A stretch of DNA of 64,000 nt from Symbiodinium sp. CCMP2592 (Eukaryota > Sar > Dinophyceae > Suessiales > Symbiodiniaceae): contig CAJNDT010005866.1 in the NCBI GenBank assembly GCA_905221615.1, positions 186,001-250,000 on the forward strand. The letters run 5' to 3'. Below are positions 43,291 to 63,395 of this stretch, one piece after another. Positions within the stretch are counted from its first letter, which is position 1. Each line of letters begins with the position of its first letter. The translations under genes and the position numbers were made by a program. Under the pieces are notes generated by a model that saw only the letters and a list, made by a program, of their open reading frames with translations, had not been told where the DNA came from and ran no database searches.

Positions 43291-43581
43291 TTAATTAATT
43301 GATTAATATCAACAATACAATAATACAAATACACATTATATTTTAAATATATATAATTTCGAATATCGTCATTATCATGACTACTCTGTATATGACTGCT
43401 GGCACTGGATGTGAGTACAGGGTGGGCCGTGCTTCTGAAAAGGCGACAGCATGGCAGCATAGACTCATAGAAGTGACTCGCCGTTGTTTGTGATCCAAAA
43501 GGTGGCTCGAACAGGGGTTCGTTCTGAGCCATGCGCTTTCGCCCTTGCGACCTTTGAAACTTCGGCTGACAGCCAGAAGAC

Positions 43582-45576
43582 ATGTCGGATGAGGAGTTGG
43601 AGCAGCTCGATGCGCTGGTCAGGGAGGTTAGGAAGAGCACAGACACCCCAGCTCACCGAGGGCCGCTGTCGACCAAGTTTGCGAGACTAGCACGCAGTCT
43701 GAAGCTTTCCAAACAACACAAGCATCAGGTGGCTGTGAGAGTACGCAGCTTGATTGAGAGATACATGGGCGGCACGCCAAAACGTCAGAAGATGTCATCA
43801 ATCTTGATGAACGCAAGCGGCCAATCCAGAAGGGCAAAGGTAAGTACAAACAGTGGTTGCCCGCAGCTCTTCTCAGAGTTTGCTGGGGCGTGAGACCAGA
43901 GCGCAGACCCAGGAGGAAGCGCGTGCCAACCGCGAGGCTGCGCAAAAAGAGCAGTGTTTCGGCTGCCAGCCAGAAGCGAGCTCCTCCTGCTGTGGCGGTT
44001 GCTTCCCTTCGCGAGACAGCCCGGCAGAACCAGTCTAGCACAACACACGTGGCCCGGATCCGACATGCGATGTCAGAACTTTTCATGCGTGTTCAGGAGC
44101 AGGAACTCAACATGTTGCCGCGTGTTCAGGAGCAGTGGATAGAGATTGCATTTGACGAGACCCAGGAGCCAGTATCCATGCAGACAACTGCAGAAACGGC
44201 TCAAGTCATGGTGCTTCACATGAAGTTTTTTCGGCTGCCAGCCCGGGGCGCAAAACTTCACGTGTTCAGAGTGGTGTTGCCCACCGTGGTGCTGCCAGGC
44301 ACGACCACTGCCGACCTCCTCGGTGGCTTGTTGGCACGCGTCCCCGTAGCTTTGGAGCAGCTCAAAGCCGTCGCTGATAGAACCACCTTCTTGTTGAACA
44401 CTGACAGTTTCGGCAGCTGCCTAAAGTTGGTGAAGTGTTTGCAAACAAGTCATGCCTGCCTGAGCTGTCCGTGCCGTATGCACCAGTTGTGCTTGTCAAT
44501 GACGGCAAGCATTGCTCAATCCGGCTTGATGGCATCCTTGTTTTGCAGTGCGCTGCTGCTGCGGAGGTCACGCTTGCAGAAAACGCTCCGTGCCAGACTG
44601 AAGCGCTTGGTGTTTGAGAAACTCCGCATCGAGTACGAGCCGCCCAGCTCTTCGGCTGTCAGCCATGCCAGAGCAGTGTGGGACTTGATTTGGCCTTTGA
44701 TTCAAGCGCGGCACGACAAGGACAAGCGCGTCACCACTCCAAGAGCCCAGGCATGGCGCAGGCTGCGCAAAAACCTTTGTGGCCCCTTGGATGACACGAC
44801 CAGTGTGGTGCATTACTGTCCATACGGATGTCACCACTCCAGGGATGAGGCGGCTTCAGAGATCTTTGAGGACTTGTGCGTTGTCTTCCTGGACTCCCCG
44901 CCTGTGGTGCCGGCTCTGAACAAGTGGACAAAGCTCGCCCCGCCGGTGATGTGGTTTTCTTGCTTCCTGCAGGTTCATGGTTTGCTCGCCCAGTGCTTGC
45001 AGCCGATGATAGATGCAAATGCTGCAAACGTGTCGCTACCGGTGCTGTGTGGGGATGAGGAGATCGAGCAAGACACAGAGGAGCAAGGGTGCGGTTTCGG
45101 AAACTTCGAAAAGGAAGAGGCCGCAAGGTTTCGGAAGTTTGCTCGGTTCGCCACCTGCCCAGAAGTAGGGCCCAAACTGGCGGCGACGCTGCTCTCATTG
45201 CTCCCAGGTCTATCTATCATGGGAAAATTCTTCGACTCTGCGGAGGAGTGTGCTGACCCAAGCACAAGTCATGCAGCAACCACCCTGAGTTTCACTCAGG
45301 CTTCGCAGTCGCCTGCTGTCAGCACGATTGAAGTTTTGCTGTCTGCCTTGTCCTCTGAACAGAGCTCGCACTGGCTGTCACTGTGCCTTCCGGGTTCTGC
45401 AGGCTGGGATGCCAGAAGGTTCCAATGTGCAGCAACACCAGCATGGGTGCAGGTTGGCCAGTTGTACTCCAGGTTGGTGATGCCTTTCAGTGCATGGCCT
45501 TTCAAGGCAGGCCGCATGCTGGAGCCAGGCGTCTCCCGCCAAACGCAAGAGGCCTTGGCGAAGGAGTTGTTGCTTG
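43582..45576 (+). CDS. Gene A, exon 1: transposase-like protein (frameshifted)
   Basis: ATG at 43582 opens MSDEELEQLDALVREVRKS. The frame then changes near an AAAA run (about 43778-43782), after which SEDVINLDERKRPIQKGKGK and the long downstream frame continue; one extra A would restore continuity. In the 574-residue part counted from 43857, FDETQEPV (D100), LLNTDSFGSCLKL (D183) and CPCRMHQLCLSM (H209) are spaced like an RNase-H-fold DDE transposase with a hAT-type C/H motif; this is inference. VHYCPYGCHHSRDEAA follows. Four palindromic elements lie within or just before it. A GT donor at 45577 (CTTG|GTTGAT) joins exon 2 in phase. I cannot tell a pseudogene from an assembly error. Confidence 0.72.
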
Positions 45577-45782
45577 GTTGATATCAAACTAGAAATCAAA
45601 TCTTCAAGTCTTCAAGTCTTCAAGTATCAATGGTCAATGGGACCGGAATTCGGAATCAAAGCCCAGTAACTTTTGCTTTCGTAGTCTTGAGTCTTTAGTT
45701 TAAGTTTAAGTCTCTTTAGTCTTTAAGTCTTAAGTCTTTAGTCTTTAGTAATTCAGCTAGAACTGATGTCACAGAGTCACAG
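45577..45782 (+). other. Gene A intron
   Basis: 206 bp, GT...AG (GTCACAG), made largely of CAAGTCTT/AAGTCTTTAGT short repeats. Removing it joins the flanking frames in phase (split codon G|AT). Confidence 0.6.
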
Positions 45783-47731
45783 ATGTCCAAAGTCCAAGGT
45801 TGGGGTTGTGCGAGCACCGCGACCCGTACATTTCCTTCATGAAGCAAGGCTTGGAGGAGGTCGACGACGTGCTGTCCCCTGACAACTTACTGCGAATGAA
45901 GCACCTTCTGGAGGTTGCTCCTGTGACAAACATTGTGAGCGAAAAGTCATTCGCAGGTTCCCACACCCGCCGAATGGCGGATCACGGTCAAAGTCCGAAG
46001 TTGCCAACGCTGGCTGCGCAACATGTGTTGGCCCAGAGCAAAAGTATTTTGGACAGCGAGGTTTGTAGGCAGACTTCCGGCTGTCAGCCAGCAGTTTCGG
46101 CTGTCAGCCATGAAACGGCAGAAGCAGGGACCAAGACCAACAGCAACGGCTGGTCTGAGTTCCTGCGCGCCAACCATGCAACTGGTCAGAGCATGCGGTC
46201 GTTAGCCGACAAGTGGGGGGCGCTCAGCCGTGACGAGAAGGCTACGTTCACTGCTGCAGCCAAGACGCGGCGACCGCCAGCCTCACCGCAGCTGGCGCCG
46301 CCGCCACAGCTGGCGCCGCCAGCGCAGCAGGCGTTGCCCAGAAGACCTCCTGCTTCTACTAGTACTGCCTGGCCTCACTGTGGAGACGACTTCTACCCAT
46401 TGCGCCAAGAGGGCTTGGATGGCATGGCTGGAGCAGTCCGCTCCCTAGCTGCCAACTGGGTGCAGCGTGTAGGGGATGGCCCATGCAAGCCTGCCCAGGC
46501 AGTTGTTGAGGACTGCGGAGCTTGGTGTCGCGGCCAAGTTTGCTTCAAAAAGCTGAGTGACTCTCGCCAGCAGGCTTTGGAGTACATGCGTGTGAAGCTG
46601 AACCGATTCGCTGCCTTCTGCAAGGAGAAAGCACCTGTCTTCGACGACATGTGGCAGATCCTCCCGGTTTTGCATGTGAACGTGCGAAATCCGGCTGGCG
46701 CCGGCTCCAGTGCAGACCGACCCTGCGGTGTCACCTTGCTGCAGCTCTGCCCGCTGCACGACTCGCAAGTGTTCTGCTTGTCTGAGAAATCCGACATACC
46801 AGCTGTGGGCACTGTGCTGGAGTTTCAGCCCGACTTGTGCAACTTGCGAGGAGCAGTCGAGGTTATGCAATTCTGCGCATCATTGCAGCTGCAGCAGTCG
46901 ATGGACGGTTTTGCAGACTCTGTGCAATGTTTGCGCCTGCGCTGCGAGCACCAGGGTTTGACGACTTTGAGAGTCACCGCCATTGAGGACATGGCAGGCA
47001 TGGAAGCAGAAGCAGCACACAGAAGAAGACGCGACAAGGATGCCGCCAAAGTCGCAGCAGCTCTTTCGCGGCTGCATGATGCTGCGCTGCTGCAGCCGAA
47101 GCGCCGACGCATTACTTCCAAGCGAGCAGATACAACGCATCAACCAAAGCGGCACGTTATCCCTGCGCAATCTTCCGGCTGTCAGCCAGAGGCAGGGGCT
47201 AGCGAAGATGCTGAGCAACAACAAGAATTGTGTGAGTGGGATGAGGAACTAGATGCAAGCGCAGTGGCTGCAAATGGTGCGGATGCGTACGCGGCCCTGG
47301 AGCAAGAAATTTTGGAAGTGGGTGCGTCCGCCGAGGACTTAGTGGAGATGAGAGAAGCGTCAGCGGCAGATGGACGCGAGGCATTGCAAGAACGCGGGGA
47401 GAATGGGCCTGCTCAAGTCGGGCAGACGGTGCAACAAGCAGCGAGACTTGTGCGCATGGACCCTGCGACTGGTCGTGTTTTCCGCACCGACACTGAGCCC
47501 AACCAGTATATAGGAAGGATGACGCAGATCAAAGTCAACACACCGCAGGAGGCCTTTTCCGTTTACTGTTCGCTTCACGGCTGTCAGATCATGCGCGGCA
47601 TCCGCCGTTGCCCATCAACAGACGAACTCCTGCGATGGTTCGAAGAGGGCCTGCAGTTGCCCAAAGGCAAAGACGCTGCGGTGCAAAGAAAACACAAAAG
47701 TTCGTTCCCTGAAGCCGAGCCATCGGCGTGA
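45783..47731 (+). CDS. Gene A, exon 2: C-terminal part with HMG-box-like segment
   Basis: The frame runs from the acceptor to TGA 47729-47731. It starts VQSPRLGLCEHRDPYISFMK and continues DNLLRMKHLLEVAPVTN, SEKSFAGSHTRRM, similar in style to the C-terminal dimerisation region of hAT transposases. A segment NGWSEFLRANHATGQSMRSL, ADKWGALSRDEKATF (46147-46250) has the W/F/L-W/EK pattern of an HMG box. Then come a Pro/Ala/Gln-rich linker, a Cys-containing globular part, a basic patch (RRRRDKDAAK, KRRRITSKR) fit for nuclear import, and an acidic C-terminal region. Three palindromic elements are translated here (as SGCQP, SAVSH and SGCQPE). A DNA-binding role is likely; activity is unknown. Confidence 0.72.
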
Positions 47732-48747
47732 TGGGTTGGACACCGCTCCACGCAAGCTTCTTATTCGGCTGACAGCCAGACAGATGTTGATGCCAGCTCG
47801 TTGTTGTCTGAGTCTGAGTGTTTCATTCGGCTGCCAGCCAGTGCCAGCTCGTTCTGTTGTTTGACTGCTTCGGCTGCCAGCCAGTGTAATCGCAATGGGC
47901 AATGGGGTAAGAATCCCTTAAAGAGGGATTGCTTGTTTCACCTGCAACAAGAGAGTTGCCACAGAAGAGGAAACAGTGCCCTGCCAGCACAGTTGATTCA
48001 TGATTCATGGTTCATTTCATTTAATAATATCAATTGTCAATATCATTCGTATCATGAATCAAATCATATCAATCATATCATATCATATCATATCAATATC
48101 ATCATGAATCATATTAATATCATCATTTTAATCATTTTCATTCATTTATCATGATTCATTTCATATCATTGCAAATCATAAATCATATATCATATATCAT
48201 ATCATTTTGTGATTCATGATTCAGAGGTTCATAGATTCATAGATTCATAGACTATCTGTCTATCTCAGCTCATATGAATATGAATATGATTCAGATTCAC
48301 ATCATTTGTCATTGCTATAATCATTGTCGAATCCTATCTTGTCAAATCATTGTATCTCATGTCACATGTCATCTCATATCACTCATAGCTCGATTCATAT
48401 TCGACTCACATCAATCATTGTGAGTCGTTATCATTGGTCAGAGTCATGAGTGTCAGTCAGTATCAGTGTCAGTGTCAGGTGTAGTAGTACAGTATAGTAG
48501 ACTATAGACTATAGTCTAGTCAGTCTGTCTGTCTATAGTCTATAGTCAGTCTGGGTAGAGTCGAGGTCTGAGTCTCACAGCCTCATGCAGTATGCAGCAT
48601 GCAGCACTTGCTTTTTGTTCGTTGGGGGGGGGCAGGACGGTCGCAAGAAAGCCCACATGGCATGTCACGTTTGCGGTTTGGCTTTCAAGGCATGTGACAT
48701 GACATGTGGGGATGCTACTGCCGCACCAGAGGCTACAGGAGTACACC

Positions 48748-48781
48748 CACTGCTACTACTACTACTACTACTACTACTACA

Positions 48782-48814
<33 letters not shown>

Positions 48815-48990
48815 GCTACTGCTACTACTACGACTACGACTACTCCTACTCCTACTCCTACTGCTACTGCTACTGCTACTACTACTACTACTACGACTGC
48901 TACTGCTGCTGCTACTACTACTACTACCACTACTACACTACTACTCACGACTGCGACTCTACGACTACGACTCCTACTACAACTGCTAGG
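48748..48990. repeat. (CTA)n trinucleotide array
   Basis: About 240 bp of CTA with CTG, CGA and CTC variants. Poly-Leu, poly-Thr and poly-Tyr frames are artefacts. Confidence 0.92.
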
Positions 48991-49463
48991 ACGACGAGGG
49001 CCACGGTAGTCTGTAGGCGCCATAGTTTCCAGCCGCTTCGAGCTTCTTCGCCTTGGTGCCGCCACACCGCGCGCTTCGGCTGACAGCCAGTGGCTTGCTG
49101 AATCCGGCTGTCAGCCAGGCCTGCTTCGGGTTTCGGCTGTCAGCCAGCAATGCCGAAGCCTCCGCATCAGCCGCCGACCATTATCAACGTATCGGCCGGA
49201 AGGCTCAGCCGGGAACGATGTGGCGCCTTGACTGCAGCTAGCAGCTACCCCCCAAACCCTAGACCCCAAAACCCTAAACCCCGAAGCCCTGTTGCCCCTT
49301 GCCCAAAGCCTTTTGCCTGTAGCCTACAGCCTATAGCCTATAGCCTTACACCGAAGCTAAACCCTCAACAGCTTAAACTGTTTAAACCTAAGCCCTTAAG
49401 GTCCCGAGGGCTACTGCTACTGCTGAATGCTGCTACTTGCTGATGCCAACTGCTATGATTTTG

Positions 49464-49508
49464 CTACAACAACAACAACAACGACAACAACAACAACTAC
49501 GACTACTA

Positions 49509-49554
<46 letters not shown>

Positions 49555-49589
49555 AACTACTACTTCTTCTACTACTACTACTACTACTG

Positions 49590-49637
<48 letters not shown>

Positions 49638-49640
49638 GTA
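49464..49640. repeat. (ACA)n-(CTA)n trinucleotide array
   Basis: ACAACAACA then CTACTACTA up to the first codons of gene B. It may form the end of an intron. Confidence 0.92.
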
Positions 49641-49650
49641 CTACTACTGA

Positions 49651-51597
49651 GTGTCAGTGCCAACTGAGGTCATCCACTGCAACGCTGGATTCCACCGGTC
49701 ACCTTTGGTTGCCGCCATGGTCTTGGTTGAAACCGGCGGTTGCAGCGACTTGGATGACGCCATGAAACAAATAGCGGGCATGCGCAACATCTGGCACCTC
49801 TGGTCAAACCGCGATCTCCTAGGCGACGACAAGACTTTGGGAAAAGCTTGGTTGTGGGCCCAGAAGACGGTTAACCGGACTCCGGCTGCCAGCCAGCGAG
49901 GGGAGGCCAGAAGTTCGGCTGACAGCCAGAACGTGCGCGAGCCAAGCACAGGCAAAGGCAGCGCAGGCAAAGGCAAGGGCAAAGGTGACCAAGGCGGCAA
50001 AAGCCCGGCTTCGGCTGTCAGCCAGAGCAAGGGCAAAGGCAAAGGTGACCAAGGCGGCCAAAGCCAGACTTCGGCTGTCAGCCAGAACCAGGACGTTCCT
50101 GTCAAAAGGATGCCGACGGCCATGGCAGAGGCCGTGGAGCCAGAGCCGCGGTATCTCTTCGAGGTCACCAGCGGCACCTCGTGCTTGATCTGCGACGTAA
50201 CGTGTCCGTCGGACCTGCACCTGCAAGCGCACCTCATGACAGAGTGGCACATGAACAAGATTCGGGCGAAGCAGCGCGAGGTGCAGGCCCGCAAAGCGGC
50301 AGGTTCGGCTGTCAGCCAGGAAACCAAGCCGCCACAGCTGCCGCTTACCTCCAAGGCTCCTCCTGGTGAGCCTGAGCCCTCGGCCAAGACAGCGCAGCCG
50401 GCGCAGCCTTTGGCGGCACCTGAGCTGAAAGCACCTCCGAAGAAGCCAGAAGCCGTCAAAGAAGAAAACGAAGGAGTCCCCACCACTGCAAAGGCACCGC
50501 CACCTTGTGTTGCAGAAAGCAGCGCCCCAGCTGCAGCAGCGCCTCCTGCAGCACCGACTCCGGCTGTCAGCCAGGCCCCAGCAAGTGGTCCGCCTGCAGC
50601 ACCGACTCCGGCTGTCAGCCAGACCCCAACAAGTGGTCCACCTGCTCCTGCAGCACCGACTCCGGCTGTCAGCCAGGCAGAGACAAGAGAAGCACCAGAG
50701 GAAGCGCCAGCAGCGTCGAGCGCCACCGCAGTGCCTGCAGCGTCGAGCCAGGCAGCGCCGTCCCAGCCCACTCTGCCTCCGGCTGGCCGCCAGAACCCTC
50801 TCCCTCCTCGACCACCGCCACCGCGCCGCTCTTCGGCTGTCAGCCAGCAGGGCCAGCAGGGCCAGCAGGTCAAAAGAGAGGCGGACACTGCGCCCCAGCC
50901 TGAGGTAAGTCCGCGCATCGTGAAGGCGCGCTCGGACAGACAACGCCTTCTGGCAGAGCTGGCGCAGGTCGACGAGGTGCTGGGCGTGGACAGCTACTAC
51001 GCCCACCACGGGCTCCGCAACGGCGCCGACACCAACCAGGACGGCCACAACGTCCTTCACCTCTTGGCCGAGGACGTCCGCCTTGGTGAGGTCAGCGAGC
51101 TCTTGGCGCTGCGTGTGGCGCAGGAGGCACCGCTCAGTACTCTCAATGAGTACACCAGAGGGGGCCGCCCGGCCGGCGCGACAGCCCTGCACATGCTGGC
51201 TGGCGCAGGCCGCGACTCTGAGCGGTTGCGGTGCAGGTTGGCTTCCATTTTGATGGAACGCAACGCCAACCCGGAGGCTCGCGACGCTCGGGGGGCAACT
51301 GCCTTGCTGCGGGCTGCCGGCGTCGGCTCGGTGACCATGGTTCAGCGCCTCATAGAGGCTAGGGCAGATGTGCACTCTTGCCACGCCACTACCAGGCGTA
51401 ACGCCTTCGACGTTGGCAATGCCGAGATGCGCGAGTACCTGCGGCGTCAGCACAACCTCAGGGGCACAGGCGCGCAGGGGCCCTCCTCAAGAGCCATGTT
51501 CCCCGATCGCTCCCGCCAGACCAGAGACGAAAGGGGCGACACGCATGCGAGCCAGGCACGCAGGGATCGCGGTGAAAGGTACAGGCAGTGGCGCTGA
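49651..51597 (+). CDS. Gene B: phosphatase-signature, C2H2 and ankyrin chimera
   Basis: Up to 648 aa, beginning without an ATG just after a microsatellite; AG at 49667-49668 (CAACTGAG) is a likely acceptor, so upstream exons are missing. The first residues carry the Cys-phosphatase loop HCNAGFHRSP (HC-x5-R: C10, R16 counted from 49651), then helices typical of the C-terminal half of a dual-specificity phosphatase. Around residues 178-200 is a C2H2 finger (CLICDVTC...HLMTEWH) of the matrin/U1 type. A Pro/Ala/Gln linker follows. Residues about 450-600 form ankyrin repeats (DGHNVLHLLAED, GATALHMLAGAG, GATALLRAAGVG). At least nine palindromic elements are translated here, all in the same frame as SAVSQ, PAVSQ, SADSQ or PAASQ. 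Function is unclear; the combination is unusual. Confidence 0.75.
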   Translation: MSVPTEVIHCNAGFHRSPLVAAMVLVETGGCSDLDDAMKQIAGMRNIWHLWSNRDLLGDDKTLGKAWLWAQKTVNRTPAASQRGEARSSADSQNVREPSTGKGSAGKGKGKGDQGGKSPASAVSQSKGKGKGDQGGQSQTSAVSQNQDVPVKRMPTAMAEAVEPEPRYLFEVTSGTSCLICDVTCPSDLHLQAHLMTEWHMNKIRAKQREVQARKAAGSAVSQETKPPQLPLTSKAPPGEPEPSAKTAQPAQPLAAPELKAPPKKPEAVKEENEGVPTTAKAPPPCVAESSAPAAAAPPAAPTPAVSQAPASGPPAAPTPAVSQTPTSGPPAPAAPTPAVSQAETREAPEEAPAASSATAVPAASSQAAPSQPTLPPAGRQNPLPPRPPPPRRSSAVSQQGQQGQQVKREADTAPQPEVSPRIVKARSDRQRLLAELAQVDEVLGVDSYYAHHGLRNGADTNQDGHNVLHLLAEDVRLGEVSELLALRVAQEAPLSTLNEYTRGGRPAGATALHMLAGAGRDSERLRCRLASILMERNANPEARDARGATALLRAAGVGSVTMVQRLIEARADVHSCHATTRRNAFDVGNAEMREYLRRQHNLRGTGAQGPSSRAMFPDRSRQTRDERGDTHASQARRDRGERYRQWR

Positions 51598-52027
51598 GTT
51601 TCTGCTGTCAGCAAGGCCAGTGCTTCTGCTTTCGGCTGTCAGCCAGAAGTACCAAGTAGCAGCGGTGCCTTCGGCTGTCAGCCAGGCAAAAGCGTGCCAG
51701 CGTGCCTTCGGCTGTTAGCCAGGCCTCCTTCGGTCCTTCGGCTGTCAGCCAGGCCTCCAACCACGGTTGCCACGGCGGCCAGCAGCGCAGCTCGGCGGCT
51801 CCCTCACAACGTGCCTTCGGCTGTCAGCCAGGCCTCCACGCTGCCGGCGCGCGGCGCTTGACTCAAAGCCGAGTGCACGGGTGGCGCCAAAAAATTCCGT
51901 CGGTTTGGGCAGAGGGACTGGGGAAGGGCGGGAAGGGTAGGAGTCGTCTGAGTTGTCGGGTCACATGTCACATGTCACGACACTTCCACGTCTATGTGTC
52001 TATGTCAATGTCCCAAGTCACAATGTC

Positions 52028-52200
52028 TATGTCACATGTCTATAGTCTATAGTCTATAGTCTCTATAGTCTATAGTCTATAGTCTATAGTCCGTCTATAG
52101 TCTATAGTCTATAGTCTATAGTCTACAGTCTATAGTCTATAGTCTATAGTCTATAGTCTATGTCACTGTCTATAGTCTATAGTCTATGTCTATGTCTATG
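52028..52200. repeat. (GTCTATA)n array
   Basis: 7-bp repeat GTCTATA containing the palindromic word CTATAG. Relatives are at 48490-48545 and 53850-53975. Confidence 0.85.
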
Positions 52201-52396
52201 TCAATGTAACAATGTCTATGTCAAGTCATGTCTATGTCACTGTCTATGTCACTCTATGTAAGTCTATGATCCATGGTCCATGTATGTCTGTATGTCTGTA
52301 TGATGTATGTATGTCTGTCTAGTCTCTAGTCCCCTGTGCTTCCTCGACCATAGTTTTTGGCTTTTGGGGTGGTTGCGAACCACCTGGTTCCCAGAG

Positions 52397-54542: not shown

Positions 54543-55390
54543 TTGTGTTTCGGAATTTCCGGAATTTCCGGAAAAATTGGGTGCGTAATTTCCGAATTTC
54601 CGGAATTTCCGGAGGAGCGTAAGTTACAGAGGGTTTCCGTTAGTTACAGTATGGTTTGCGTTAGTTATCAGCCTCGTAACTTTCATACGGCAGAAATTCC
54701 ATTAATTCAATAATTCATAATTTCCGGAATTTCAGGAATTCCAGAAATTCAATAAATCATAATTTCCGGAATTTCCGGAATTTCCGGAGGAGCGTAAGTT
54801 ACAGAGGGTTTCCGTTAGTTACAGTATGGTTTGCGTTAGTTATCAGCCTCGTAACTTTCATACGGCAGAAATTCCATTAATTCAATAATTCATAATTTCC
54901 GGAATTTCAGGAATTCCAGAAATTCAATAAATCATAATTTCCGGAATTTCCGGAATTTCCGGAGCGTAAGTTACAGAGGGTTTCCGTTAGTTACAGTATG
55001 GTTTGCGTTAGTTATCAGCCTCGTAACTTTCATACGGCAGAAATTCCATTAATTCAATAATTCATAATTTCCGGAATTTCAGGAATTCCAGAAATTCAAT
55101 AAAATATAATTTCCGGAATTTCCGGAGGAGCGTAAGTTACAGAGGGTTTCCGTTAGTTACAGTATGGTTTGCGTTAGTTATCAGCCTCGTAACTTTCATA
55201 CGGCAGAAATTCCATTAATTCAATAATTAATATTTTCCGGAATTTCCGGAGGAGCGTAAGTTACAGAGGGTTTCCGTTAGTTACAGTATGGTTTGCGTTA
55301 GTTATCCGCCTCGTAACTTTCATACGGCAGAAATTCCATTAATTCAATACTTAGCAATGAATTGAATTTCAGAAATTCCAGAAATTCAAA
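54543..55390. repeat. Satellite with 124-175-bp units and TTTCCGGAA core
   Basis: Five units marked by GGAGCGTAAGTTACAGAGGG at about 54614, 54789, 54961, 55127 and 55251 (spacings 175, 172, 166, 124). Each holds GTTAGTTACAGTATGGTTTG, CCTCGTAACTTTCATACGGC and runs of TTTCCGGAA. The shorter last unit lacks the second A/T block. Confidence 0.9.
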
Positions 55391-55547
55391 AATAAACAGG
55401 GGCATCTAGCGCGCTTGCCTCACCCCAAGCGGGCGTGGGCCATGGGCTCTAGGACAGTCTAGTGAGTCAGTCTAGTGACTAGTGTAACTGTGCATACCGT
55501 ACAGGCATACAGTAGCACTGGCAAGGAGCTGCGCGGGACTCAAAGCC

Positions 55548-55778
55548 ATGGCGCCGCGCAAGCGCCCGGCAGCTCTGCCGCGTCCAGTGGAAAAAAAGCC
55601 GCGCGGCAGCGGCATCGCCGAGTACTTCCGGTGCGACGACGTGCCAAGTTCGGCTGACAGCCAGATACCGACTGGCAGTTTTCCGGCTGCCAGCCACGAG
55701 CCTGCCAACACCGACGCCGAAGCCCCGCCTCCCAAGCGGCTTTGCGCAGGTGCTGGCATCAGCGAGGAGGTCTGCCAG
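55548..55778 (+). CDS. Gene D, exon 1: N-terminus of the methyltransferase-like protein
   Basis: ATG at 55548 opens 77 codons, ending at a GT donor (TGCCAG|GTAGGG). A basic segment (MAPRKRPAALPRPVEKKPRG) looks like a nuclear localisation signal, followed by SGIAEYFR, which loosely resembles a PCNA-interaction motif without its Gln. PPKRL lies near the end. The exon ends in phase 0, matching exon 2 at 57890. Two palindromic elements are translated as SSADSQ and PAASHE. Joining to exon 2 is inferred from phase, strand and adjacency. Confidence 0.55.
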
Positions 55779-57889
55779 GTAGGGTTTAGGAAGTTTACGG
55801 TTTATTGGCTTAGGGCTCGGGCTAGGTTTAGGGGCTTCGGGGGTTTAGGGTTTAGAGTCTGCCATATAGCCTGCAGCCCTCAAACCTTAAGTCCCTAGAC
55901 TATATAGACTAAAGCCTAAAGCCTAAAGCCCTAAAACCCTAAACCACGGCTCAAGATTGCTTGATCGCCAAAGTGCGGCGGCAACGGATTGTCACCGTAA
56001 GGACCGTAAGCAAAGTGTCCGGCTTCACTATGTACCGTGGTCGAGAGTCAAGTTATATAATGTGCCCCCTGGGAAGCCCCTGAGAGGCCCGGGGGGAAAT
56101 CTAGGGAATTTGTACTGAATTTGAGCCGAATTTGAACTGAATTTGAAGCGAATTTGAAGCGAATTTGAAGCGAATTTGAGCCAATTTGCATAGATTTTGA
56201 ACCCTAGGGGTCACACAGTTTTGTCCTACTGCCCTAGGGGGCAAAAAAAAATGGATATCGGCCTGCGGCAGGAACGGAATTCGTCTGAAGGCAAGAGGGT
56301 TGAAGACGAAGATTCATGTTTCAGTGTCAGGACTCTCAGGATTGCCAAAACTTACTTTGCGGCAGTAACGGAATTCGCCCGAAGGCAAAAGCATGGAGTT
56401 GAAGACTTGAAGATACATGATTCAGCGTCGCGAGTCTCAGGAATTTAGCCTGCGGCAGTAACGGAATTCGCCCGAAGGCAAACGCAGGGGTTGAAGACTT
56501 GAAGATACGTGCTTCAGCGTCGCGAGTCTCAGGATTGCTAAAATTTTAACTGCGGCAGCAACGGAATTCGCCCGAAGGCAAACGCAGAAGACTTGAAGAT
56601 ACATGATACATGGTTACATGATACATGATTCAGCGTCGCGAGTCTCAGGATTGCCAAATTTAGACTGCGGCAGCAACGGAATTCGCCCGAAGGCAACAGC
56701 AGGAGTTGAAGACTTGAAGATACATGATTCAGCTTCGCGAGTCTCAGGATTGCCCAAATTTAGACCGCGGCAGCAACGGAATTCGCCCGAAGGCAACAGC
56801 ACGGGTTGAAGACTTGAGGATACATGGCAGGCTGCGGATATTTTTTTTGCTCCGCAGCCGCCGGAGCACTGTCTTGAGTCTGATGTTCTTGCTTGCTGAT
56901 ACCAACGGTCCTTTGCGAATCGAACGGAGACCCTTCAAAAGGGCGGCTGTGCGCCGCGGCCCCTGCGTGGGCCGCCGCGCGAGCTTCACCAGGCGCTGCA
57001 GGATGCCCAGGGAGCGAACGCCGGCAGCCCGCAGCACGCAAGTGGCGCCCCGGGCATCACGCGCCTCTAGGTCGGTGCGGTGATCAGCCGGGACCGCAAG
57101 CGTTCGGAGTCTCGGCCCGCACCACACAACATGTGAAGGGCTGTTGCTCCAGCTGGCTTGTGGGCATGTGTGCGCCGCGGCCCCTGCGTGGGCCGCGCGA
57201 AGCTCCACCAGGTAAACTTCCTGGTTGCCGAAGGCACGGGTCACGTGGACGTCGGGGCGAACCTCCACCAAGCGCTGCAGGATGCCCAGCAGCACGAAAG
57301 TGGCGCCCTTAATGGGATATTGGAGTCTCTGGGTGGCTTGACTGTGACTCTGACTCTGACTCTGACTCTGACGTGACTGTGGTTTGATTTCGATTCTCTT
57401 TACTTTGTTGAGTACTGAACTGATTTCAGATTTCGTAGCTCTCGTCACGCTTGCCACGTCGAGTCGAGTCATGTCACACTCACAGAGTCACATGCATGCA
57501 TGCTGCGTGTCATCAGTCATCACAATCTGTCCGTGATGTCTTTGTCGTCGTCGCGTCACGTCATGCATGCGGTCATGCTGCGGCCTATGGCTAGTTGCGT
57601 GAGTCTTAAATTAAATTCAATTTCTCATGAAAATTTTAGTCTGAGTCTTAGTCTTAGTCTTAGTCTTAGTCTTAGTGTTTACAAAAATCGGCCAACGGTG
57701 CCGGCGTTATCCGCGGCGAAAAGAAAAAAGGGTTTCGGCGTTTTCGGGTTCGGTTTAGGCGGTTTAGGCAAGCAGCCCTACCTAAGCCGCGCAGCCTAAG
57801 TCTAAGTCTAAGTCTAAGTCGCAGTCTAAGTCTAAGTCTAAGTCTATCAGCCTGACAGTCTATTTATTTTAAATGACTCTGAATATCAG
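55779..57889 (+). other. Gene D intron (inferred)
   Basis: About 2.1 kb, GT...CAG (GAATATCAG). Contains telomere-like sequence at 55790-55940, a tandem repeat (56258-56842), a weakly repeated GC-rich block (56930-57310) with GCGCCGCGGCCCCTGCGTGG twice, and short TGACTC, AGTCTT and GTCTAA tandem repeats near the 3' end. Confidence 0.5.
56258..56842. repeat. Tandem repeat of about 100 bp, six units
   Basis: Units begin TGCGGCAGCAACGGAATTCG at about 56260, 56361, 56452, 56550, 56665 and 56765, and contain GTTGAAGACTTGAAGATACA and GCGTCGCGAGTCTCAGGATT. Unit 4 is longer through an ATACATG duplication. Confidence 0.88.
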
Positions 57890-60800
57890 GAGCCGGGATC
57901 GTCGGCTGTCAGCCAGGGTCCCACAGCGGCAGCGGATGAGGCTGCTAATGATGCCTACGATTCGTTCGATGACATGGTGCGAGACTCAGTGCAAGAAGCA
58001 CAGAACAGGCGCTGGATGGACAGCGGGTTCTTTCACTCGGAGGAAGAAGAGTTGTCGCCGTTGTCGCCGTCGTATGAGCATGAAGAGAAGTTGAGAGACT
58101 GCCAGCGCCAGCCGGCTGCCAGCCCGAAAACGTCAGGGCAGCACGAGCCAGAGGACAACGGCACGACCGCCGAGCAGCCGCAACCGCTGGAGTCACAAGT
58201 GGACGGGAGAGTGAACGCAGCAACAGAGCTGGAGTCAATGGCGGAGCCACTCAGGAAGGAGGAGCAGCCGGAGCACAATGACAGCCAGGCGGAGCCACTC
58301 AGGAAGGAGGAGCAGCCGGAGCACAATGACAGCCACAGCAATTTGCAGCAGCAGCCGGCTGTCAGCCCGACAACACCAAGGCAGCCGGAGGCCCAACTGG
58401 ACGGAACAAAGAAAACAGTAACAGAGCAGCCGCAGTTGGAGTCAGAGGTACAGCCAGTCAGGAGCCAGGCACGCGTGGTTTCGGACTACCTATCTGATGC
58501 CTACTGGAGTTCCCATTTGTCACCTATCAAACCCCGGCCAACTGACAATGATGGCAGGAGCCCTCCGCCAACCGTGGCCCCAACAGTGATCGTAGCGCAG
58601 CCGGAGCATAGCCATGGCTGCAGCAATCTGCAGCAGCAGCCGGCTGTCAGCCCGACAACACCAGCGCAGTACCAACAAGAGGACAACAGCACGACCAGCG
58701 AGCTGCAGCAGCAACAGCAGCAAGCTGTACAAGTTCCTGTACAAGCGCAGGTAGTAAAAGAAAGCAAGGAGCAAGAACAGCGGCCACCGGAGCCGCAGCC
58801 CCAGTCAGAGCCAGGGTTACTGGGAAAGGAGGAAACAAAGACCAAGCAGTCGGAAGCCAGCAGTCTGCAGCAGCAGCCGGCTGTCAGCCCGACAACACCG
58901 GGGCAGTGCGAGCAAGAGGAGTGCAGACAGCAGCAACCGCCGGAGTCACAACTTGACGTAACCTTAGACGAAGCTGCAGGCAAAGAGCAACCTCCGCAGC
59001 CGCAAACAGAGCTTCAGTCAGAGCTGTTCAGCAAACAGGAGGAAAGAAGGCAGCACGAACAAGCGCCAGAGAAGGAAGGCAACAAAAGCACAACAGCCAC
59101 CACCGCCGCAGTGCTTTCCGCTGACAGCGAGCAACCCACGGAGCCTTTAGTACTGGGGAAGGAGGAAACAAAGCAGTTGGAAGCCAGCAATGACTCCAGT
59201 CTGCAGCAGCAGCCGGCTGTCAGCCCGACAACACCGCGGCAGTGCGAGCAGGAGGAGAACACTGCAACAGTACACGAAGACTCAGGCAAAGAGCAAAACC
59301 GCCAACCGCAAGCGCCAGAGTTGGAAAGCAGCAAAAACACAACAGCCAACGGTGCCGCAGAGTCTTCGGCTGCCAGCCAGAAGCCTGCGGAGCCTTTGCT
59401 CACACCAGACTCGCTCGCTTTGGTTCAGAAGGTGCAAGCGAACAGGGACCAGCAGTCCGACGAGTCCTTCGAAGCACTTCTGCAGGCTTGCAAGCAGCAC
59501 GAACTGTTTGCTGCCTTCGAGGCAGACTTCCTCGAACACTGGGATTCAGATGAGCCATGGATCTTTCAAGAGTCGGAAGATCTTGAATTGTTTTTCGATT
59601 TCGTGCAAAGGAAGGCGAACTTAGACTTGCACCGTTTCGCCCGGGAAGCTTCGGACTCAGAGAGCTCGCAAGAGGACGTGTCCAAGACTAAGACTCAGAC
59701 TCCGGCTGACAGCCAAGACAGAGCGCCCGCTGCTGACACTGCCACCCAGGCTGATTGTTTTCCAAAATCTTTCGGCTGGCAGCCACAGGACAGCGACAGC
59801 GACAGCGACAGTGTGTCGGGAATGCTGGAAATGGTAGCCCGAGCCAAAGACAATGACGGGCATGAGTCTGAGCCACGTAATCAAGCAGCAAAGGATCTTG
59901 GACCAGAGCGGCTGGTCCTTCAAGAGCCGGCGTTGTTTGCGCAAACCGAAGTGTGGAAGTTTTTGCAGCTTGCTTGGGGCAAATTGTCCCAGCAGCAGCG
60001 ACAAGACTGCCTGCTCAATCTGACCAAACACACCCACTTCCGTGGCGAGGCAGGTGACACCTGGCGGCCAAGCGGGCCTTCCATCGGGACGATGTGCTCT
60101 GGCAGTGGAATGGCAGAACTTGTGCACAGAGTTTTGACCGAGGCGTTGCAGACAAGAGAAGTGCTTGTGCACAGTTGCGAAAAAGAAAAGTACAAGAAAG
60201 GCCACCTGCTGCAGTACGTCGCTCCGATCATGGAGCAAGGCAACCCGGATCCGGCTGTCAGCCAGAGGCACGGTTGCGTTTTCACAGAGTTTGCCTCTTT
60301 GGCAGGAACGTCAGCTTACTGCGATCGCCACCAACGCACATGCCGCATCCAGCCATCGCCGCTGCTTGTTGTTGTTGGATACTCTTGCAAGCAACTTAGC
60401 AAAATGAACAACGCCAGCAACGTCGGAGTGTTGAGATCGCAGACAGGCTCCAGTGGGGAAACATGCTTCGCACTCATGAAGTATTTGCGGCAGCACCGGC
60501 CCGTTGCTGCGCTGCTTGAAAATGTGGAGGAGATGTCCAGAGAAAGCCAGGAGTCAGACAACGTTGCTTTCTTTTTGGAGCAGCTGGAGGCTTTGGAGTA
60601 CAGTTTGGCCACAAAGCTTCTCGAAGCGTCGCACTTTGGGTTGCCGCAGGCTCGCAAACGTGCCTGGCAGGTTCTCCTGAACAGGTCCGTGTTTGACTGC
60701 TCTACGGAAACCCTTGACTCCATCGCACAGGCGATCCTGAACACTGCTTCGTCTCTCGGCTGTCAGCCACGTCCGGCAGTGGATTTCCTGCTTCCTGATA

Positions 60801-61456
60801 ACGATCGCTACGTAGAGGAGGTGCTGGCGAAAAAAAAGCAGGCAGCCCGTGACAGCTCTGGCGAACTGGAGGCTTGGCGGCAGAGGCATCGCGATTTCTT
60901 TGCGACCAAGAACATCGCTTGGACAGAAATTAAGCTGCCTGAGGTTGTGCAGAGCAGTCCCTGGGCCTGCCTACTCACAGAACGGGAAAAGGAGGTTCTG
61001 GCCTACAGTTTGATGAAGCACTTTGCAGACGTCAAGGCCTCTGGGACGCCTTCCGCTGACAGCGAGGGCCGCCAGTTTGTTGCAGTAGACCTTTCGCAGA
61101 GGCTTGACCGAGCCCGAGTCACCAGTTCCCCCGACTTGTTTTTCACGATGCTGCCAACCCAGAAAATCTGGGTTTTGGCACGCAGCAAAGAGGGCCTGGT
61201 GCTTCACAACCGACTTCTGACGGGCAAGGAATCCTTGAGGTTGCAAGGATTTCCAGAAGTCTCGGAGCTGCAGGTGACTGACCACCAGCAGCAAGACCTT
61301 GGTGGCAACGCCTTCGCCAGCACAATTTTGATGGCATTGCTTCTGTCGCTATATTCCCACCTTCCGCAATACATGTGGACCGACAAAGAGCAAGAAGAAA
61401 CGGCTGCAGCTGATGATGTGGAGCGGTTGCTGTGTGATATAGACGACCTGGACTAG
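57890..61456 (+). CDS. Gene D, exon 2: DNA (cytosine-5) methyltransferase-like protein
   Basis: With exon 1 the protein is about 1265 aa. The frame is open from the acceptor (57889) to TAG 61454-61456; ATG 57974 is an alternative start. The first 550 residues are Gln/Glu/Pro-rich, with four copies of LQQQPAVSPTTP. The C-terminal domain shows C5-methyltransferase motifs in order: I, GTMCSGSG (60086-60109); IV, GYSCKQLS (about 60377-60400), where Ser replaces the usual Pro before the catalytic Cys; VI, LLENVEE (about 60512-60532); VIII, LPQARKRAW (60641-60667); and X, GGNAFAS (61301-61321). The region between VIII and X is the expected target-recognition domain. It should act on nuclear DNA, but activity is untested. 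Palindromic elements are translated throughout, including inside the catalytic domain (60253, 60758). The protein ends acidic (DDVERLLCDIDDLD). Confidence 0.88.
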   Translation, partial: EPGSSAVSQGPTAAADEAANDAYDSFDDMVRDSVQEAQNRRWMDSGFFHSEEEELSPLSPSYEHEEKLRDCQRQPAASPKTSGQHEPEDNGTTAEQPQPLESQVDGRVNAATELESMAEPLRKEEQPEHNDSQAEPLRKEEQPEHNDSHSNLQQQPAVSPTTPRQPEAQLDGTKKTVTEQPQLESEVQPVRSQARVVSDYLSDAYWSSHLSPIKPRPTDNDGRSPPPTVAPTVIVAQPEHSHGCSNLQQQPAVSPTTPAQYQQEDNSTTSELQQQQQQAVQVPVQAQVVKESKEQEQRPPEPQPQSEPGLLGKEETKTKQSEASSLQQQPAVSPTTPGQCEQEECRQQQPPESQLDVTLDEAAGKEQPPQPQTELQSELFSKQEERRQHEQAPEKEGNKSTTATTAAVLSADSEQPTEPLVLGKEETKQLEASNDSSLQQQPAVSPTTPRQCEQEENTATVHEDSGKEQNRQPQAPELESSKNTTANGAAESSAASQKPAEPLLTPDSLALVQKVQANRDQQSDESFEALLQACKQHELFAAFEADFLEHWDSDEPWIFQESEDLELFFDFVQRKANLDLHRFAREASDSESSQEDVSKTKTQTPADSQDRAPAADTATQADCFPKSFGWQPQDSDSDSDSVSGMLEMVARAKDNDGHESEPRNQAAKDLGPERLVLQEPALFAQTEVWKFLQLAWGKLSQQQRQDCLLNLTKHTHFRGEAGDTWRPSGPSIGTMCSGSGMAELVHRVLTEALQTREVLVHSCEKEKYKKGHLLQYVAPIMEQGNPDPAVSQRHGCVFTEFASLAGTSAYCDRHQRTCRIQPSPLLVVVGYSCKQLSKMNNASNVGVLRSQTGSSGETCFALMKYLRQHRPVAALLENVEEMSRESQESDNVAFFLEQLEALEYSLATKLLEASHFGLPQARKRAWQVLLNRSVFDCSTETLDSIAQAILNTASSLGCQPRPAVDFLLPDNDRYVEEVLAKKKQAARDSSGELEAWRQRHRDFFATKNIAWTEIKLPEVVQSSPWACLLTEREKEVLAYSLMKHFADVKASGTPSADSEGRQFVAVDLSQRLDRARVTSSPDLFFTMLPTQKIWVLARSKEGLVLHNRLLTGKESLRLQGFPEVSELQVTDHQQQDLGGNAFASTILMALLLSLYSHLPQYMWTDKEQEETAAADDVERLLCDIDDLD

Positions 61457-62159
61457 TTCTAGCGCCTCCTGGCAGCAAAGGGCCGCGTGTACGGCTGACA
61501 GCCAGTTGGACAGCAGGGCGCACTCCCGTGGCGCGGCGGTGGCATAGCTGCCCCCACTGCCTTGGCTGTGAAGCTGTGAACTCGCCCTGTTTGAGTTTTT
61601 GGACGTTTGAAGGCCTGTAGGGCCGAACCACGAGCACCACGTCTTTACACAGCTGAGTGCGAAAACCGGTGAGTGGGTGACGGTGCGTGCTTTGATTGAG
61701 CAAGTGAGCAGCTTGACAGGCCGGCTGTGGTACAGTGTTCCGACGTCACGTTCAGTTATGTTATGTTCAGTTCTGTCATTCTGTCTTCATGCTTGGGAAC
61801 TCCGTGTGACATGTGACATGTGGATGCTTCCATGGGCTCAAGTCAAAGTGGCCCCAAGTTGAACTATCTATCAGTCTATCAGTAGTGAAGTCAAGTCAGT
61901 CAAGTCTTAGGAGTCTGACAGACGTCTACAGTCCTCTGGAGAGAGCCTGAAACGCAGTAGGTGGTAAGACTAGACGAGAGTTGCCTGGCCCTGGTGAGCA
62001 AGTGCGGACGGGGGCCGCTGCGCTGAAGTTGGCTGCGTTGTTGTTGTTGTTGTTGTTGTTGTGCTCGGCTGCCAGCCTGTTTTGTGCTCGGCTTTCAGCC
62101 TGTTGGGCACTCGGCTGTCACCTTGTTGTGTGCTCGCCTGTCTCTCTCGGCTGTCAGCC
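61457..62159. other. Spacer between genes D and E
   Basis: One palindromic core at 61493, short TGACATG/CTATCAGT repeats, a (TTG)n tract at 62037-62061 and a ladder of decayed palindromic elements at 62062-62159. No gene is seen. Confidence 0.6.
62062..62159 (+). repeat. Ladder of intact and decayed palindromic elements before gene E
   Basis: Successive units at about 20-25-bp steps: CTCGGCTGCCAGCCTG, CTCGGCTTTCAGCCTG, CTCGGCTGTCACCTTG, CTCGCCTGTC and CTCGGCTGTCAGCC, the last running into the ATG. The left flank is CTC instead of TTC. Confidence 0.75.
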
Positions 62160-63395
62160 ATGGACGAGGACTTGAAATCCGTCGCCGGCCGCTCAGAACG
62201 CTCAGAGGGGGCAAACACTGCTTCGACAGCTCTGTGTCAAAACTCCGCCGCCGGGACGGTGGTAGACGGACAAGTCTTCTTGAAGGTGCGCAGCTGCATC
62301 GCTTGCGGTCGCAAGAACTGCGACCTAAACGAAATCAGGGCAGGCTTGTTGTCGAAAAGCCGCTTCACAGTGTGGCATAGAGGCACCCCAGAGGATCCTC
62401 AGTCCAAGCACGACAGGGTTTGCCAGCTCACGTACCAGCACGGCGCCTTCGGAGACGAATCCATCGAAGAGTTTGTCAACAATCGGATGAAAAGAGATCC
62501 GCAGCTGCAGGCCGAGTTCATAGCAGCTCGAGGTGCCATGCTGGAGCTGCTCAACGAAGGCAAAGCGCGGTTCAGGGGCAAGACAATGGACTCCGCCAAG
62601 CAGCGCCTGGAGCTTGCCAGAAAGAAGTCTGTGGAGGAGTTCAAGGAGGCTTCGACTGAGGTGGTGACGGGCTACGTGTGCTGGGACCGGGCGCTCTTCG
62701 AGAAGGAGCACCCAGGCCTCATAGAAAAGAAGGGTTTGAAGGTGGCGAAAAAGGTCATAGACGGAAAGAAACGGGAGGTCGTGATGATCAGGAAAAACCG
62801 CGAGGGCATCTGGGACGTGAACGTCACCGAGAAGACAGGTGTTCGACAAATGGAAGAAATCGACAACGGCGAGCACGAGATCCATGAGGGTCAGCACAGC
62901 TTGAAGTTTTCCTCCTCAAAGAAGCGCCTGCACAACGCACTTGCCGAGAAAGCGAACGAGTCAAGCGTGCTTGCGGCTGACAGCCAGGAAGACCTGAAGG
63001 ACAAAGCGCTGCCGAGGCTGGCTGAGTCTTCGGACGAGGACGGCGACTACGGGGTGAGGAGCACTTTGCTGGACGAGGGCGATAGTCCGCCAAGGAAAAC
63101 CCAGCGGCCGAATCCAAGCAGCGGCAGTGGTGCCAACTTGCCTGCGCCCAAAAACAAAGCCAGAGGCGGACAGCAAGCGCAGAATCCGATTCCTGCTGGC
63201 AGCAAGTTTCCCGATTCTGCTGTCAGCAAGCATCTGTCAAGTGAGAGGCGGGAGTCTCGAGAGCAACCTCCAGGACCTACAGACAACAAAGCGGACACAG
63301 CCGGCCGAGGCCGGCCGAACAAGTTTAACAACAAGACGCCGGTGGAAGTCCTGGAGTCCAGCGGCCTGGTGGAGGTGAAGACTTGCCGGCAGAGC
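62160..63395 (+). CDS. Gene E, exon 1: Lys/Glu-rich protein with Cys cluster
   Basis: ATG at 62160 lies directly at the edge of a palindromic element (CAGCCATGG). Near residues 44-54 is a Cys cluster, CIACGRKNC, followed by HDRVCQLTYQHG, which could form a zinc site. A long charged helical region follows (SAKQRLELARKKSVEEFKEA) and then TGYVCWDRALFEKEHPGL. The C-terminal third is disordered, Lys/Ser/Pro-rich and possibly nuclear. The last codons before a GT donor (GAGC|GTGCAA) are inferred: downstream sequence is (GTCTCAGTCC)-like and looks intronic, so the frame that continues to 63512 is probably not translated. One palindromic element is translated as AADSQE. The family was not recognised. 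Confidence 0.7.

Follow-up and report, generated by a model that had tools for sequence, protein, structure and literature searches.

Directional predicted hairpins repeated along the genes of a large DNA transposon in Symbiodinium, a possible RNA recognition signal

The transposon and its predicted genes

The window analysed here, a stretch of 64,000 nucleotides from Symbiodinium sp. CCMP2592, carries part of a DNA transposon of 24,491 bp (C5004:228716-253206), delimited by aligned copies and, at its ends, by pattern. It occupies positions 42716..64000 (+ strand; copy alignment, end pattern and 8-bp target duplications) and ends 3,206 bp beyond the window. The left terminal inverted repeat, TTGACTGAATCCAAGAGCTTGC, lies at 42716..42737 (+) and the right end, past the window, reads TTGTGTGAATCCAAGAGCTTGC inwards; the inverted terminal repeats have the form TTGACTG.../TTGTGTG... 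with AATCCAAGAGCTTGC at the two ends. The 8-bp target duplication TATATATG (42708..42715), in TA-rich surroundings, is repeated after the right end, and an array of TTTCCGGAATTTCCGG-type repeats at 42841..43290 is found again near the right end at 66,660-67,139 (extended coordinates). Genome-wide, 27 such transposon ends were found and none with a control pattern. Of 10 copies with two ends, 8 are flanked by a perfect 8-bp target duplication, which in three cases lies in TA-rich sequence; the duplication is imperfect in C1491 (6 of 8 positions) and C280 (4 of 8). This count omits C1221, because both of its ends face in one direction. A target duplication of 8 bp is typical of hAT elements, and the element shares this length with the hAT superfamily; searches with gene 1, with its relatives P0001-P0003 and with the other frames covered turned up no hAT Pfam family, neither transposase nor dimerisation domain. 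Nor was a reverse transcriptase family found in the searched element frames (for the last exon of gene 6, in NCBIfam and PHROGs), or a capsid-like family among their matches. A reverse transcriptase at 31,207-34,236 lies outside the element.

The gene models, UTRs and intron are inferred from open frames, and all genes lie on the + strand. Gene 1 (A; 43582..45581) encodes a candidate transposase with conserved acidic and CxxH-like signatures (DETQEP, NTDS, CPCRMHQLC and HYCPYGCH; 6 sequences compared); its frame is broken near 43,765 in the window copy and open over 670 aa in eight other full copies. The frame has no Pfam match, and neither have the relatives P0001 and P0002 up to E 5; the relative P0003 gave just two chance-level DUF matches. 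A comparison of gene 1 with PDB sequences gave no match, and its structure model (pLDDT 37) was unusable. Gene 2 (B; 45767..47731), whose start position is unsure, encodes a conserved protein with a 69% identical relative, P0006. Gene 3 (C; 49150..51597) shows weak matches to a phosphatase-like fragment, a C2H2 finger of the zf-met/JAZ type (zf-met, E 0.007) and ankyrin repeats, and has no homologues at E 0.001. Gene 4 (D; 52835..53326) is a short frame. Gene 5 (E; 55548..61456) encodes a C5 cytosine DNA methyltransferase (PF00145, 2.7e-18; TIGR00675, 4.2e-20, under its curated cut-off) in two predicted exons, 55,548-55,782 and about 57,870-61,456. The first part of gene 6 (F) covers 62160..64000, and the gene runs on to 66,119 (extended coordinates).

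A directional motif apparently tied to the transposon

Along the predicted genes a short motif with the consensus YYC-GGCT-GNC-AGCC-AG is repeated (43561..62987, +; pattern count). The initial annotation had reported about 48 exact cores in 19.4 kb and none in the first 43.5 kb; in the 64-kb window we counted 48 exact copies of GGCTGNCAGCC at 43,564-62,985 and zero before 43,564. It had described the motif as a 16-bp palindrome, which holds for the 11-bp core alone; YYC and AG on its two sides lack this symmetry and have a single direction. Exact TTCGGCTGNCAGCCAG occurs 20 times on the + strand of the window and never on the - strand; with up to two mismatches the figures are 51 and 0. The element is longer than the interval first given for the motif, 43564..62984: it spans from 42,716 to 3.2 kb past the window, where 8 more sites lie. 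The whole element carries 63 hairpin sites, every one of them sense (63 sense against 0 antisense when anchored by the C before the core). Gene direction is not separable here from element direction because all element genes run the same way. The 63 sites stand in 53 different flank contexts, in agreement with the earlier view that the surroundings are unrelated and more than tandem duplication is involved. Many copies lie in low-complexity stretches and adjoin each other. No Rfam family matched the window at the gathering threshold.

In the genome (1.098 Gb), TTCGGCTGNCAGCCAG occurs 290 times against 0 for the reversed-pattern control. Among 100 listed places of these 290, distributed over 8 contigs, 99 are on 7 contigs that also bear ends of the 24,491-bp transposon, and the remaining one (C1524) is about 200 bp from a contig end. 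Two copies, C104 and C1221, are rearranged, with 2 of 15 exact 16-mers reversed in each. Close copies have diverged too little to reveal purifying selection: in C857 we found 2 changes at 308 motif positions against 12 substitutions at 995 flank positions. The signal seems to go with transposons and not with the genome at large, because 99 of the 100 listed places share contigs with transposon ends and because a paralogous family carries the motif. Of the proposal of a genome-wide recognition signal, the recognition part holds up better; the genome-wide part finds no support in the 100 listed places or in the stretches empty of the motif. For the alternative proposal of a tiny dispersed element, no empty site speaks in its favour. 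Derivation of all copies from a few duplications does not account for the sites inside the element, with their 53 contexts for 63 sites, but between loci transposon copies carry much of the count.

The methyltransferase of gene 5 suggests a further reading, which we hold to be very improbable, namely that the motif serves this enzyme as a site of recognition or protection. Known methylase sites are short and strand-symmetric. Here the motif flanks are directional, the outer pair is free provided that it pairs, and the sites are tied to genes. The precedent would be HIP1 of cyanobacteria, a highly iterated short palindrome linked to orphan methyltransferases (PMC4390886). The present motif is likewise a dense short palindrome; unlike HIP1, which is genome-wide and strand-symmetric, it is directional, has 0 cores in the window left of the element and is transposon-tied in 99 of 100 listed places.

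Covariation of the outer pair

The more relaxed pattern NGCTGNCAGCN occurs 64 times in the element, with the outer pairs G-C (55), T-A (4), C-G (3), A-T (1) and G-A (1). The one mismatched site, G-A, is at the same time without a C in front of its core; in the 63 sites that have this C the outermost pair is Watson-Crick in every case and all four combinations are seen (exact P ~4e-12 for complementarity, provided the sites are independent). Complementarity thus extends to 8 of the 9 pairs other than G-C, and these 8 compensated sites stand in 8 different flank contexts. According to the outer-pair pattern count they include, on the + strand, TGCTGTCAGCA with a T-A pair at 45314..45324, again at 51603..51613 (6 nt past the gene 3 stop) and at 63218..63228; CGCTGACAGCG with a C-G pair at 59119..59129 and again at 61054..61064; TGCTGGCAGCA at 63194..63204; and AGCTGTCAGCT with an A-T pair at 63836..63846.

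This covariation points to a hairpin X-GCU-GNC-AGC-X', as a fold predicted from DNA. The test covers one pair alone, the inner part being fixed by the search pattern. Further out, a C faces a G across a bulged A; this pair hardly varies and shows no covariation. A stem of 4 bp with a triloop has no more than moderate stability, and single sites folded no better than shuffles (7 folds, including one of a constructed test sequence, gave z from +0.3 to -1.2). A longer stem, pairing TTC with GAA across the bulged A, was suggested by some folds; we dropped it, those pairs being without covariation.

Placement of the hairpins relative to genes

Predicted coding sequence contains 39 of the 63 sites, in all three frames (31/4/4), gene 3 having the most of any gene (17 of 63); the other 24 are at most 222 nt from a predicted start or stop. 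Unlike the earlier statement of copies in exons, introns and spacers, none of the 63 mapped sites falls within gene 5's predicted intron of 2,087 bp (55783..57869, +) or the long spacers. Introner-like elements were dropped as an explanation, since the copies occupy predicted coding sequence and gene borders and leave the predicted intron free. A relic of the dinoflagellate spliced leader, which we take to be unlike the motif, was dropped as well.

Six of eight predicted starts (genes 1, 3, 4 and 6 of the window, and the two genes of the sister family described below) have a hairpin ending 0-10 nt upstream of the ATG. In the window these hairpins, all on the + strand, lie at 43564..43574 (ending 7 nt before the gene 1 start codon), 49135..49145 (4 nt before that of gene 3), 52824..52834 (adjoining that of gene 4, 0 nt) and 62149..62159 (adjoining that of gene 6, 0 nt). 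The predicted start of gene 5 has no hairpin directly before its ATG, and gene 2 is without a sure start. Downstream of the stop, a hairpin begins after 6-37 nt in 5 of the 6 window genes.

The coding copies could in principle reflect protein selection on a repeated SAVSQ-type peptide, as 31 of the 39 would be translated as A-[VADG]-S. We find this scarcely credible: the other 8 coding copies are in the other two frames, 24 copies outside predicted coding sequence have identical nucleotides, and 31 of the element's 44 A[VADG]S tripeptides are spelled GCT GNC AGC, where codon use would predict about 3%. The non-coding copies largely refute the peptide, and the shared spelling argues for a constraint at the nucleotide level.

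Such a constraint might also act on double-stranded DNA, if the motif were a directional site bound by an element protein that controls elongation or chromatin along the element. The single direction along the whole element, the density near gene starts and ends, and a near-palindromic core that fits a dimer would all suit this reading, and mycobacteriophage stoperators, numerous short asymmetric sites over one mobile genome whose type of repressor binds many of them, offer a parallel (PMC9283540). The likeness lies in many short asymmetric sites throughout one mobile element. Half-sites read separately, however, need no matching outer base, yet 8 of the 9 non-G-C pairs are complementary; moreover, unlike in stoperators, which are DNA sites, the outer pair covaries (63 of 63 complementary) and the sites fall in predicted exons and gene edges, with none in the 2.1-kb predicted intron or the long spacers. 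We regard the DNA site as rather unlikely.

Related transposon families

A sister family, whose A, B and C proteins are 51, 40 and 38% identical to those of the window element, carries 27 copies of GGCTGNCAGCC in gene direction; a C precedes every one of the 27 cores, and AG follows 24 of them. Their positions are mostly different: only 4 of 16 compared coding hairpins of the window coincide. In its two genes a hairpin ends 8 and 10 nt upstream of the ATG. The outer pair is G-C in all 27 sites, which adds no covariation, and one mismatched near-match (A-A) lacks the C before the core. The motif is present in this sister-family stretch, in which tblastx found no match to gene 5; its contig ends early. 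A gap of three residues in the sister family coincides exactly with the hairpin at 43,961.

This gap would fit an origin of the copies as a functionless selfish or mutational by-product, by very short palindromic insertion or repeated template-switch copying within the element. Template switching at palindromes would by itself yield complementary arms, and copies often lie side by side in low-complexity stretches. Alone, such a process would not explain the single direction or the avoidance of intron and spacers, and it sits poorly with 53 contexts for 63 sites and with a core kept across a divergence that leaves proteins 38-51% identical; we judge it quite unlikely.

A more distant family has a different directional and covarying hairpin, GGCY-UNN-RGCC-nGGUU, with 19 GGCYNNNRGCC in 10 kb against 0.5 expected and a directional flank nGGTT. 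Its fourth pair is complementary in 20 of 23 cases; for the window's first 42 kb the figure is 3 of 21. In two other related families the samples gave no clear excess (C205, 10 kb: 0 GGCTGNCAGCC and 2 GGCYNNNRGCC against 0.35 expected) or no motif (C813, 5 kb).

A possible RNA recognition signal

We lean slightly towards the reading that the motif is a transposon-wide RNA recognition hairpin, present on all element mRNAs and read by one RNA-binding protein, probably at the post-transcriptional level. The hairpin YC-X-GCU-GNC-AGC-X'-AG, found at 63 places in and beside the predicted genes and always on the sense strand, would be active in RNA and not in DNA, and would be bound by a protein, perhaps one encoded by gene 3, with its zinc finger, or by gene 2, with an action after transcription. 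The most likely output would be control of translation or mRNA handling, because hairpins stand 0-10 nt before the ATG (6 of 8) and 6-37 nt after the stop (5 of 6); it might take the form of a shared on/off operator or of a self tag gathering the element's mRNAs.

More tentatively, as a possibility about which we are doubtful, transposon families of this genome may tag their own mRNAs with a family-specific hairpin barcode over every gene, read by an element-encoded protein, as a self/non-self labelling. The barcode would be GGCUGNCAGCC, common to two sister families, and GGCY-UNN-RGCC-nGGUU in the third, and could be likened to packaging signals, though in a DNA transposon. Should the hairpins indeed act in RNA, this would be a DNA transposon of a eukaryote whose messages have all acquired a recurring tag of RNA identity; to our knowledge such a tag is otherwise known from RNA viruses alone. 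Dinoflagellates are thought to regulate their genes mostly post-transcriptionally, and the reading, if true, would open a way to learn how the many genes of a giant transposon are coordinated in such organisms. It would also offer a natural source of hairpin-protein pairs with different specificities, because a related family appears to have a different hairpin.

Comparison with known systems

Packaging signals of MS2, STNV and parechovirus are dispersed stem-loops with a common motif and one reader protein (PMC6281560, PMC4751978, PMC5431903, PMC3593212). The present element would resemble those single-stranded RNA viruses in its many short motif-sharing stem-loops, here predicted from DNA sequence, and differs in being a DNA transposon with no capsid-like match in the searched frames and a very uniform motif. 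A viral origin was considered and set aside: 71 IMG/VR stretches match the 16-mer pattern once each, which we read as chance without a computed expectation, and no relatives of gene 1 were found in IMG/VR.

Among mobile elements of Symbiodinium, SymbioLINE-Dnmt and SymbioDIRS-Dnmt3 are retrotransposons bearing a DNMT, for which the accessible part of the source mentions no dispersed hairpin (PMC5890265). The element shares with them a C5 methyltransferase on a mobile element in a dinoflagellate; unlike them, it is bounded by inverted ends and target duplications of 8 bp, and its searched frames gave no match to a reverse transcriptase. In build it is comparable to the giant eukaryotic DNA transposons, which a review describes as exceeding 20 kb, with inverted ends, target duplications and extra genes (PMC6431247). 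All these features are found here, several genes standing beside the candidate transposase, but this last, unlike in giant DNA transposons, fits no Pfam family. We know of no giant transposon with internal sense-strand hairpins. A limited search of open papers, by titles and the starts of abstracts, found no paper on hairpins of this kind in a DNA transposon. The core string itself occurs in 5 papers that, judged by their titles, concern human disease.

The motif lies within a DNA transposon

The initial annotation had counted about 48 copies of the 11-bp core GGCTGNCAGCC in about 20 kb and none earlier, and this count was reproduced, with 48 exact copies at 43,564-62,985 and 0 before. The 16-mer, which is the core plus its flanks, occurs 20 times exactly in the window, all on the + strand and 0 on the - strand; at up to 2 mismatches the numbers are 51 and 0, respectively. 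Across the full assembly (1.098 Gb, 5,383 contigs) it occurs 290 times, 100 of these with their places listed, versus 0 for the reversed control.

The motif-bearing element is a transposon. Other contigs carry copies that share its spacing, and these copies have exact termini, TTGACTGAATCCAAGAGCTTGC at the left end and, in inverted orientation, TTGTGTGAATCCAAGAGCTTGC at the right; 27 such ends exist across the genome versus 0 for the control. The window copy is 24,491 bp long, starting at 42,716 and ending 3,206 bp past the window. Target duplications of 8 bp are perfect in 8 of 10 two-ended copies, a count that leaves out the copy on contig C1221, whose two ends point the same way. These duplications are GGTAGGGG, CCTTAAAC, GTCATAGC, GTTTTGGG, GGTATGAG and three more in TA-rich sequence, including TATATATG of the window copy. 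The two flanks match at 6 of 8 positions in C1491 and at 4 of 8 in C280; as C280:500703-525466 is without a target duplication and one of its flanks is common to C2291, this copy appears to have arisen by recombination between two insertions.

Shorter forms, of 13.8-14.4 kb by end-to-end distance, are present on C857, C1101, C1491, C3335 and C5205. Those of C857 and C1491, both aligned end to end, have their large gaps at 43,898-49,984 and 59,057-64,376 and are without most of genes 1 and 2 and parts of genes 5 and 6. C104:252001-282000 and C1221 are rearranged or nested copies, in which a right end is fused to an internal site equivalent to window position 52,222 and a short piece of gene 3 is inverted. 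A TTTCCGGAATTTCCGG-rich array at 42841-43290, of a type present near both element ends, recurs internally at 54540-55390 as a ~165-175 bp tandem array.

Conserved signatures alone make gene 1 a candidate transposase; in the window (43582-43768) its frame is broken near 43,765, and it is open over 670 codons in eight other full copies. Gene 5 encodes a C5 cytosine methyltransferase; its predicted first exon (55548-55782) opens with MAPRKRP...GSGIAEYF, a start that may resemble a PCNA-interacting box.

A predicted directional hairpin with a covarying outer pair

The element carries 64 sense-strand copies of NGCTGNCAGCN, the hairpin site with its outer pair free; the inner GCT-GNC-AGC was set by the search. 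The outer pairs comprise 55 G-C, 4 T-A, 3 C-G, 1 A-T and 1 G-A. A C precedes the outer base in 63 of the 64, the sole exception being the G-A site, and thus the outer pair is complementary in 63 of 63 C-preceded sites (P = 4e-12, assuming independent outer bases). The 8 compensated sites all stand in different flank contexts, the 63 sites in 53. On the 3' side the core is followed by A in 55 of 61 flank-distinct rows and then by G in 51 of 61, and among the element's perfect 4-bp stems with a GNC loop only the NGCT type carries TTC and AG flanks. Neither the window element nor C280 has an antisense C-anchored copy; C857 and C1491 have one apiece, at a sense site whose A after the core has changed to G, so that the site can be read both ways.

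The constant apex, the free but paired stem base and the directional flanks give the motif the look of a protein-bound RNA hairpin. That it is instead a DNA site appears unlikely, and a mutational by-product slightly less likely again; both would be consistent with element genes that all point one way, with just one base pair being free to covary and with single-site folds that are not unusually stable.

Placement relative to predicted genes

Gene models are open frames whose starts and stops are predictions, and mRNA blocks were outlined with the motifs in view; a P value for containment of every site in these blocks is therefore circular and was set aside, a problem that does not affect codon distances or the empty intron. 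The 39 sites in coding sequence are split 31/4/4 over the three frames, the remaining 24 lie no more than 222 nt from a predicted start or stop, and the predicted 2,087-bp intron of gene 5 has 0 hairpins. A hairpin ends 7, 4, 0 and 0 nt upstream of the predicted ATG of genes 1, 3, 4 and 6; none is close before the predicted start of gene 5, and for gene 2 the start itself is uncertain. Downstream of the stop a hairpin begins within 6-37 nt in genes 2 to 6, and no such hairpin follows gene 1. The spelling GCT GNC AGC is used by 31 of 44 A[VADG]S coding tripeptides versus ~3% expected, which argues that the nucleotides are what is maintained. Since copies lie at predicted start codons, translation control by the hairpins is plausible.

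Predicted hairpins in related families

Among the 72 of 181 candidate gene 1 relatives that were scored, 9 are full copies at 99-100% identity, the window's own included, and C4778 and C3201 carry a paralogue pair at 51%; other matches are short-form remnants, and more distant ones stand at 23-31%. The C4778 sample (14.9 kb, up to the contig end) encodes genes A and B, the equivalents of 1 and 2, fused in one 1,307-codon frame (2855-6775 of the stretch L116), followed by gene C; identity to the window proteins is 51% for A, 40% for B and 38% for C. It holds 27 GGCTGNCAGCC in gene direction, with C before the core in 27 of 27, AG after it in 24 of 27, loop N as T19 C7 A1 and all 27 outer pairs G-C; one extra near-match has an A-A mismatch and is without the C. 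Hairpins lie 8 and 10 nt upstream of the ATG in its two genes, and clusters lie both upstream and downstream of gene C. Position is shared with C4778 in 4 of the 16 window coding hairpins compared. When gene 1 was aligned with five relatives, RL[PS]A at 44,233 was kept in 6 of 6 rows, which may reflect protein constraint.

In the C2138 family, which has a 951-codon frame and matches part of gene 1 at 28% identity, no GGCTGNCAGCC occurs in 10 kb. GGCY-NNN-RGCC occurs there 19 times versus 0.5 expected under a first-order model, and 0 times versus 2.3 expected in the first 42 kb of the window. The fourth pair of GGC-N5-GCC is complementary in 20 of 23 (permutation 0 of 200,000), versus 3 of 21 in the window's first 42 kb. 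T is the first loop base in 18 of the 20 hairpins, and the 3' flank leans to nGGTT (11, 15, 16 and 14 of 20), in gene direction. Positions 199-8981 of L118 (C2138:5001-15000) display a distinct hairpin motif, GGCY-UNN-RGCC-nGGUU, which is dispersed, covarying and directional, in a family distantly related to gene 1. Genome-wide there are 41 exact matches to GGCCTTTGGCCNGGTT versus 1 for the control, 29 of the 41 on the 13 contigs listed for this family. In 10 kb of the C205 family there are 0 GGCTGNCAGCC and 2 GGCYNNNRGCC versus 0.35 expected, and in 5 kb of the C813 family none. C4778 has 12 GGCC-N3-GGCC, mostly within TTAGGCC or CTAGGCC repeats, so that this count alone is not evidence.

Function and comparison with known systems

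The covarying pair, the uniform orientation, the link to genes and the survival of the motif across deep divergence, its positions turning over, favour a dispersed hairpin that works in RNA. By binding a protein, the hairpins would provide a shared tag across the element's mRNAs, a role that we hold to be slightly on the probable side. Gene 3 weakly matches zf-met (E 0.007) and zf-C2H2_jaz, a double-stranded-RNA-binding family (E 0.34); given the zinc-finger matches and its having the most hairpins (17 of 63), its product is a candidate hairpin reader, no more. In its way of working the motif would most resemble the packaging signals that RNA viruses carry dispersed along their genomes; the hairpins are not classed with these, since the element frames searched gave no capsid-like family and no particle is known for the element.

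The motif is not a HIP1-like palindrome, and it falls outside the stoperator as we would word that definition. Membership of the DNMT retrotransposons of Symbiodinium (PMC5890265) was rejected because the element frames searched contain no reverse transcriptase.

Other frames in the window

Outside the element, a Copia-type retrotransposon frame lies at 31204-34236 on the - strand (RVT_2, E 9.5e-11), another long frame (35,024-37,579) has no Pfam match, and an uninterrupted 3-hydroxyacyl-CoA dehydrogenase frame of 356 residues lies at 11755-12825 on the + strand.
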